Translations under genes and position numbers: made by a program
Shown: positions 30,089 through 31,165 of the stretch, one piece after another
Numbering within the stretch: position 1 is the first letter of the stretch
Layout: every line of letters starts with the position of its first letter
DNA from: Planctomycetaceae bacterium
GTDB lineage: Bacteria > Planctomycetota > SZUA-567
Length of the DNA stretch: 39,670 bases
Assembly (NCBI GenBank): GCA_021205245.1
Contig: JAJPXZ010000121.1
Location: forward strand, 1-39,670
Direction: 5' to 3'
The notes under the pieces: model-generated
What the model saw: the letters and a program-made list of their open reading frames with translations, nothing else
Databases searched by the model: none
What the model was told of the DNA's origin: nothing

Positions 30089-31165
30089 ATGGCGTTACCC
30101 GCACTGCTGTTGTTGGAAAATGAGGAGCCGTTTTGGGGCGTCGGGGTGGGCATGGAAGGTATGACGCAGGGCGTGATGGTCGCGTCGGCGTTCTCCGCCG
30201 GTATTCCCGATCTCATGACCGACCCATCCTACACCGGCAAACTGGTGTGCTTTACCTATCCCCATATCGGCACCTCGGGGATGGTGCCGTCGGACTTGCA
30301 GAGTGACGAAATCGCTGTGCGGGGAATTGCCGCGCGGGAGGTCGGCCGGACGGCCGCGAACCGGCTTGGCGTTGAGGCCATGAACGCCTGGCTCGACCGC
30401 AACGGCATTCCGGCAATCGAAGGCCTCGACACCCGCTCCGTTACCGCCATCCTGGCCCGCCGTGGCCTGGTGCGGGCTGTCATCGGGACGGGCAAATACG
30501 CCGATGCGTCGGTTTTGGCGAAACAGTTCAGCGACGCGACATCCTGGGACGTGCCGAAGGCCGGAACGACAAAGCCATATGACTGGACCGACGGCGTGGG
30601 CGACGACTCCGGAACCATCATCGTCTACGACTTCGGCGTCAAAAAGGGATTGCTGCGCCGCTTGGCCTCGCTCGGACGCGCCATCCGGGTTGTGCCGTCG
30701 AATTACCCCGCCGCCGACGCGCTGGCTCTGAAGCCGGACGGCATTGTTTTCTCCGGCGGGAACGGCGTCCCCGATACGCGCGCCGAAGCCCATGCCGCCG
30801 CGTCGGCGATGCTGGGGCAGGTGCCGCTGTGGGGGATTGGCGTCGGTGCGGGCGTGCTTGCCCAGGTTGCGGGTGCGGCCATTGCCGTGAACGGCACGGC
30901 CCATTACGGCGTCCAGCCGGTGGGACGGCCTGGCGAACCGTCGGGCGAGATGACGGTCCAGGCCCATGAATTCTGGATTGAAGGCGAGTCTCTCATGACG
31001 GCGGGACTGGAACTCACCCACGTCCACTTGAACGACGGGTCGGTGGAAGGGTTCCGCTGCACCAAGCGCCGCCTTGTGGGTACCCTGTTCCACCCGGAAT
31101 CAGAACCTGGCCCGCGCGATAGCCTGTATTGTTTCGAACGCTTCTCCGATATGATGAGGAAATAA
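30089..31165 (+). CDS. carA: Carbamoyl phosphate synthetase small subunit, lacking the catalytic cysteine
   Basis: 358 residues from the ATG at 30089 after GAGGAG. The N-terminal CPSase small-chain domain (ALLLLENEEPFWGVGVGMEG, TDPSYTGKLVCFTYPHIGTS) and the class I glutamine amidotransferase domain are both complete. CarA normally hydrolyses glutamine with a Cys-His-Glu triad. The nucleophile motif PxxGICLGHQ is PLWGIGVGAG here: Cys is Gly251 (GGC) and LGHQ is VGAG. His335 and Glu337 are kept (LFHPESEPGP), but glutamine contacts are altered too: the NHGFAV motif reads AHEFWI and LSNGPGDP reads FSGGNGVPD. Glutaminase activity should be absent, leaving a structural partner for CarB. Four bases separate it from carB. 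Confidence 0.93.
   Translation: MALPALLLLENEEPFWGVGVGMEGMTQGVMVASAFSAGIPDLMTDPSYTGKLVCFTYPHIGTSGMVPSDLQSDEIAVRGIAAREVGRTAANRLGVEAMNAWLDRNGIPAIEGLDTRSVTAILARRGLVRAVIGTGKYADASVLAKQFSDATSWDVPKAGTTKPYDWTDGVGDDSGTIIVYDFGVKKGLLRRLASLGRAIRVVPSNYPAADALALKPDGIVFSGGNGVPDTRAEAHAAASAMLGQVPLWGIGVGAGVLAQVAGAAIAVNGTAHYGVQPVGRPGEPSGEMTVQAHEFWIEGESLMTAGLELTHVHLNDGSVEGFRCTKRRLVGTLFHPESEPGPRDSLYCFERFSDMMRK

Follow-up and report, generated by a model that had tools for sequence, protein, structure and literature searches.

A second carbamoyl phosphate synthetase with a predicted dead glutaminase subunit and a probable use of free ammonia in a planctomycete

Introduction

Carbamoyl phosphate synthetases (CPSs) that are specific for ammonia are known from vertebrates. 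According to one study (PMC4655335), Gln318 of human CPS1 stands in place of Gly293 and closes the tunnel that leads from the former glutaminase site, another entrance for ammonia was proposed, and variants of E. coli CPS whose tunnel is blocked or perforated have normal activity with external ammonia. Here, we describe a bacterial gene pair, carA'-carB', found on a stretch of 39,670 nt from a Planctomycetaceae bacterium (assembly GCA_021205245.1, contig JAJPXZ010000121.1; the entire stretch is referred to below as the window). This window forms contig C198 of a metagenome-assembled genome of 4.3 Mb in 203 contigs, 84.85% complete (G000). Our analysis indicates that carA'-carB' is a second CPS of this organism, whose glutaminase is predicted to be dead and which probably uses free ammonia, together with bicarbonate and two ATP, to make carbamoyl phosphate.

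Results

The Altered Glutaminase Site of CarA'

The gene carA' (positions 30089 to 31165 of the window, forward strand) runs from an ATG at 30089 to a stop at 31165 and encodes a CarA homologue of 358 aa. Its nucleophile elbow reads GIGVGAG in place of GICLGHQ (residues 249-255; 30833-30853). A preliminary description of the locus had claimed that the catalytic cysteine is replaced by Gly251, and both the open reading frame and the codon (GGC, 30839-30841) agree with it, as does the copy in a second genome of the same genus (G006), which reads GIGIGAG. The changes it gave for the glutamine-contact positions were likewise confirmed, namely: FSGGNGVPD for LSNGPGDPx (residues 221-229; 30749-30775) and AHEFWI for NHGFAV (residues 292-297; 30962-30979). 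The triad residues His335 and Glu337 are kept within FHPESEPGP (residues 334-342; 31088-31114), again as described. The accompanying statement that the protein is otherwise well preserved was too strong: CarA' shares about 30% identity with E. coli CarA in a structure alignment and about 30-34% with the canonical CarAs compared, and its score against TIGR01368, the curated model of glutamine-hydrolysing CarA, is 242.5 bits, below the cut-off of 307.35. CarA' does clear the neutral model NF009475 (224.9 vs. a cut-off of 221 bits), and a CarA fold is predicted along its entire chain. Thus, with the catalytic Cys, the Gln273/Asn311 contacts (E. coli numbering) and the TIGR01368 score all lacking, the window protein is, judged from its sequence, a CarA by descent and fold and not a glutamine-hydrolysing CarA.

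The four altered elbow codons are at least 1, 1, 3 and 3 base changes away from codons for C, L, H and Q. In AHEFWI, the four altered codons differ from their NHGFAV counterparts by at least 2, 1, 2 and 1 bases. In addition, carA' of G006 is 88.5% identical to the window gene over 358 codons, and its synonymous codons are partly different. A single read error is excluded by these multi-base changes together with the G006 copy. Sequencing error, which the preliminary description had already thought unlikely, was rejected altogether since the motif is found in 46 further sequences.

Conservation of the Cysteine Loss in Clade I

About 5.8 billion proteins were searched with the window protein, here and below with scoring of a capped set of candidates. 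The best 120 of 1044 matches comprised 47 proteins at 47-89% identity, followed by a gap to 38%. We refer to the group above the gap as clade I; its counts are for 46 relatives plus the window protein, leaving out a truncated relative (P0048). All 47 sequences carry Gly at both Cys269 and Gln273, so that the alignment proposed earlier as a check on the Cys loss finds it conserved throughout the clade. Asn311 is also lost in 47/47, Gly313 is Glu or Asp in 46/47, and the elbow residues Gly251, Gly253, Ala254 and Gly255 are invariant. The CPSase small-chain domain (PF00988) and the class-I glutamine amidotransferase (GATase) domain (PF00117) are present in every sequence. Cys, Gln and Asn are all present in each of the 73 listed matches below the identity gap.

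The clade I threshold is reached by G000 and G006 alone in a sample of 392 genomes from the phylum. In five other genomes of the same genus that are 76-84% complete (G001-G005), carA' was not found at the threshold used, and the CarBs of these five group with the canonical type of G000 described below. The second CPS is thus patchy within one genus.

The Synthetase Subunit and Selection on the Gene Pair

Four bases separate the end of carA' from the start of carB' (31170-34469, forward strand), which encodes a CPS large subunit of 1099 aa. Its completeness, as previously claimed, is borne out by NF003671 (1517.9 bits, cut-off 599), by TIGR01369 (1351.8 bits, cut-off 1027) and by the catalytic motifs that were checked. 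In alignments, the CarBs that have dead CarA partners keep the ATP, metal and bicarbonate/carbamate-site residues examined, namely R169, E215, H243, E299/N301/R303/R306, R715, H788, E841/N843/R845 and the AEDR of R129 (numbers placed by motif). A loss of CarB catalysis was rejected. In G006, carB' (C192, L077, about position 15800) has an in-frame TGA at residue 1007, about 92 residues before the end, through which the window gene reads; either the allosteric domain is truly truncated there or the assembly is at fault.

Contig C138 of G000 and C96 of G006 each carry a second, canonical carA with GICLGHQ, accompanied by its own carB. Because the canonical carAB sits on another contig of the same genome, CarA'B' is an extra CPS. 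CarB' and the canonical CarB are 56% identical. It had been argued beforehand that an intact second carA supplying CarB would overturn the prediction of ammonia use. Such a gene is indeed present, with its own carB, so that half of this objection applies, and CarB' could in principle borrow its product.

Between G000 and G006, the ratio of nonsynonymous to synonymous substitution rates (dN/dS) of carA' is 0.111 by NG86 and 0.059 by YN00, as compared with 0.041 and 0.013 for carB' (first 1006 codons), 0.024 and 0.012 for the neighbouring pta, 0.042 and 0.024 for the neighbouring pyrF, and 0.075 and 0.012 for canonical carA. By these estimates carA' is under purifying selection that is weaker than that on its operon neighbours. 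The gene is free of stops in both genomes, and a pseudogene was rejected on the dN/dS of 0.06-0.11.

Two Further Clades with Dead Glutaminase Sites

A CarA census in a 99-genome sample of relatives gave 94 places, with hits taken to about 1e-15 and weaker ones (fragments, other amidotransferases) left out. Four of the 94 lack the Cys (those of G000, G006, G018 and G028), and a separate search added G180 and G166. The proteins of G018, G180 and G166 belong to clade II, in which the Cys is missing from all of the best 120 of 945 matches (119 Gly, 1 Ala), the elbow is GIGLGHQ and Glu355 is not kept. Among the matches listed, all ten named organisms are planctomycetes, with Brocadiia and Phycisphaerae counted among them. 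The protein of G028 belongs to clade III, where 119 of the best 120 of 1429 matches lack the Cys (93 Ser, 20 Ala), His353 is mostly Tyr and the elbow is GIS[LT]GHE; Omnitrophica/Omnitrophota account for eight of ten named organisms among the matches listed. Four genomes of the 392-genome sample have a clade II or III protein, and the scores then drop from 489 to 428 bits. Members of both carry the name 'glutamine-hydrolyzing carbamoyl-phosphate synthase small subunit', and in both the N-terminal domain is more conserved than the GATase domain. Their CarBs keep the residues of the ENPR motif as EVNPRLSR in the alignment, though the ENPR regular expression gave no match; the carB of G028 ends at a contig end before H788. 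A canonical carA is present as well in five of the six dead-CarA genomes, and G180 (61% complete) showed the dead one alone.

In all four clade II/III clusters (G018:C65, G028:C195, G180:C281 and G166:C625), the C-terminal part of GMP synthetase, i.e. ATPPase and dimerisation domains without the GATase, is encoded directly upstream of the dead carA. Against the TIGR00884 cut-off of 338.75, these proteins score 336.4 bits in G018 and 286.5 bits in G028; the gene of G166 ends at a contig end. Longer guaA frames of 552-587 codons are found elsewhere in G018, G028 and G166. In G018, no GATase gene lies beside the ATPPase-only gene, the next frame upstream being a 6-phosphogluconate-dehydrogenase-like one (by eye) on the other strand. 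Since the canonical carA lies near a guaA in G025, G028 and G166, duplication of a gua-car cluster may have been followed by removal of the glutaminase from both enzymes.

Clades II and III thus resemble the window clade in the lost Cys, the kept CarB residues and an aliphatic residue at position 293 (see below). They differ from it in the elbow, the loss of Glu355, the guaA part upstream and a separate CarB lineage.

A Shared Change at the Tunnel Position

We screened a 450-row CarA alignment for positions at which one residue reaches at least 40% in all three dead clades and at most 10% in 162 Cys-bearing CarAs. Only two positions pass, namely: Val at 293 and Ala at 119 (E. coli numbering). 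An aliphatic residue at 293 is present in 35/47, 116/120 and 90/120 sequences of clades I, II and III, respectively, vs. 4/162 Cys-bearing CarAs (Fisher p<1e-24 for each clade, although the rows are related and these are hence not true probabilities). In the window protein, the residue aligned there is Val275 (30911-30913), within HYGVQPV (30902-30922). The register at 293 is less certain in clade I because the adjoining residue is deleted in 47/47 sequences. The dead bacterial clades are altered at the same position as the plug of human CPS1, where they favour Val or another aliphatic residue.

Number of Origins

A careful CarB tree was built from 42 of 55 rows, 13 having been dropped as fragments, long branches or near-copies. 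CarB' falls beside the CarBs of G011 and G007, whose CarA partners are canonical, and the clade II/III CarBs group together elsewhere. On this tree the dead partnership needs two changes, and a single clade is rejected (p-AU 5e-7). The CarA tree in which clade I was held beside the canonical CarA of G008, G011 and G007 scored 26.8 log units better than the free quick-search tree (p-AU 0.82); the latter is thus not the best tree, and its grouping of the dead CarAs is perhaps due to long-branch attraction. We read these trees as at least two independent glutaminase losses, with one older loss also compatible with CarA alone.

Genes Surrounding carA'-carB'

The cluster order is pta, carA', carB', pyrF. 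The downstream gene pyrF (34504-35517, forward strand, first ATG at 34534) encodes orotidine-5'-phosphate decarboxylase (TIGR02127, 254.9 bits, cut-off 110.6). Upstream, a pta-like phosphotransacetylase gene lies at 28997-30010 on the forward strand (TIGR00651, 361.7 bits, cut-off 311.2), for which no functional link to CarA'B' turned up. Between pta and carA', a terminator-like hairpin of 10 pairs followed by T7 (30037-30066, forward strand), conserved in G006, ends 22 nt short of the carA' start. It would fit an attenuator of carA', albeit such sites are no commoner in the window than chance (8 vs. 7.2 in shuffles). The same cluster is found in G006 on a contig of 20307 bases (L097), the one close match among 47 loci of a contig scan.

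Three carbamoyltransferases are encoded in G000, namely: ATCase, OTCase and a YgeW-type knotted enzyme (C173, L254; TIGR03316, 765 bits). The latter is also present in G006, and it could not be tied to CarA'B'. Elsewhere in the window, a 436-aa open reading frame (17937-19247) is FIST-like by eye with no NCBIfam match, and a tyrosine-recombinase-like frame near the end (38050-39576, reverse strand) scores under the XerC/XerD cut-offs.

Discussion

The clade-wide loss of the pocket and nucleophile, the intact CarB', the purifying selection and the change at the tunnel position together point to free ammonia as the likely nitrogen source of CarA'B'. CarA' would still bind CarB' and hold it in its working shape, as a structural and perhaps an allosteric or regulatory partner. 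At the Gly293 position, the former tunnel for ammonia leading from the dead site would be narrowed or closed, and ammonia would come in by a different route, which is also the proposal for human CPS1. Since pyrF is next door, the product might feed pyrimidine synthesis, and the two CPSs of the organism could serve different nitrogen states. The earlier proposal of an ammonia-dependent CPS is therefore backed, by inference, in its loss of glutamine use and in free ammonia as the likely source; the organism as a whole, having canonical carAB, is not confined to ammonia.

Several observations weigh against this reading or parts of it. Clade I keeps His353 in 39/47 and Glu355 in 47/47 sequences, and its GATase domain is about as conserved as its N-terminal domain (ratio 0.963); both might also be expected if the old site had gained a new function. 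Seven Cys-bearing CarAs have Gln at 293. The window cluster lacks the guaA linkage seen in clades II and III, and in free quick-search CarA trees one branch (support 95) has all dead clades on the same side, contrary to independent losses. Finally, a canonical carAB resides in the same genome, so that the use of ammonia is not forced by need.

That same canonical CarA might itself serve CarB', with CarA' as a competitor, inhibitor or regulator of the pairing. It is encoded on C138 of G000, as it is in five of six dead-CarA genomes, but it has its own adjoining carB, the 4-base gap favours CarA' and CarB' as partners, and the two CarB types are 56% identical; we regard such an exchange as unlikely. 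It is also quite unlikely, in our view, that the old pocket now senses a ligand or takes a new substrate and controls CarB' in this way. The invariant elbow glycines and alanine, the acidic residue that replaces Gly313 and the even conservation of the two domains in clade I would suit it, whereas profile searches matched CarA' to no known ligand-binding family beyond GATase, and conservation in clades II and III is higher in the N-terminal domain.

If carA' were a duplicate in decay and about to be lost, this would account for the five genomes of the genus in which carA' was not found and for a dN/dS above that of the neighbours. The low dN/dS, the absence of stops and the invariant motifs in 47 related proteins make decay very unlikely. 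An artefact of sequencing, assembly or binning is hardly credible, even though the genome is metagenome-assembled and incomplete and the tetranucleotide correlation of the window is 0.908 with the canonical carAB contig vs. 0.964 with the G006 carA' contig. For the motif it is refuted by the 46 further sequences; many codons differ, and G006 has the same cluster. A contaminant contig was rejected as well: the ArgS encoded on the window is single-copy in G000 and fits the genus, being 98% identical to that of G006 and 79% to that of G003, both of the same genus.

Beyond the probable use of ammonia by CarA'B', we consider it an even chance that bacteria have invented the CPS I solution at least twice: carAB was duplicated, the glutaminase killed and the tunnel plugged at the residue that is plugged in vertebrates. 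In clades II and III, the glutaminase of GMP synthetase would have been lost too, giving an ammonia-only module for nucleotide nitrogen beside the glutamine-dependent set. If the predicted use of ammonia in place of glutamine is true, annotation and metabolic models assign the wrong reaction to nearly 300 of the proteins listed, among them several that were deposited as 'glutamine-hydrolyzing'. Independent bacterial replays of the evolution of the urea-cycle enzyme would then be available, and the entry of ammonia into CPS after glutaminase loss would become testable by comparing natural solutions.

The principle is already known from human CPS1. Our search for bacterial CarAB pairs whose small subunit is dead covered titles and abstract openings in the open-access literature, with subscription papers mostly outside its scope, and found no report of such a pair; relative to that literature, the two-subunit bacterial version, which spans three clades, arose at least twice as judged from CarB and is altered at the same tunnel position, appears new. 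As compared with E. coli CarAB (PDB 1jdb, 1c30), CarA' has Cys269, Gln273, Asn311 and Gly313 replaced. The ATPPase-only gene upstream of the clade II/III carA resembles the stand-alone ATPPase of the archaeal-type two-subunit GMP synthetase, and such subunits can use external ammonia in vitro (PMC10526850).

A close likeness is to the vertebrate mitochondrial CPS I (human CPS1; PDB 5dot, 5dou, 6uel), with which CarA'B' shares a lost nucleophile and kept synthetase residues. CarA'B' is predicted, on these grounds of sequence, to work like CPS I without being a member of it; we do not file it there because it is encoded by two genes and is no single fused chain as in human. The human Cys-to-Ser change is the one seen in most of clade III, while the window clade has Gly at that site, and Val stands at 293 where human CPS1 has Gln. 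Finally, CarA'B' is bacterial and stands beside a canonical CPS.
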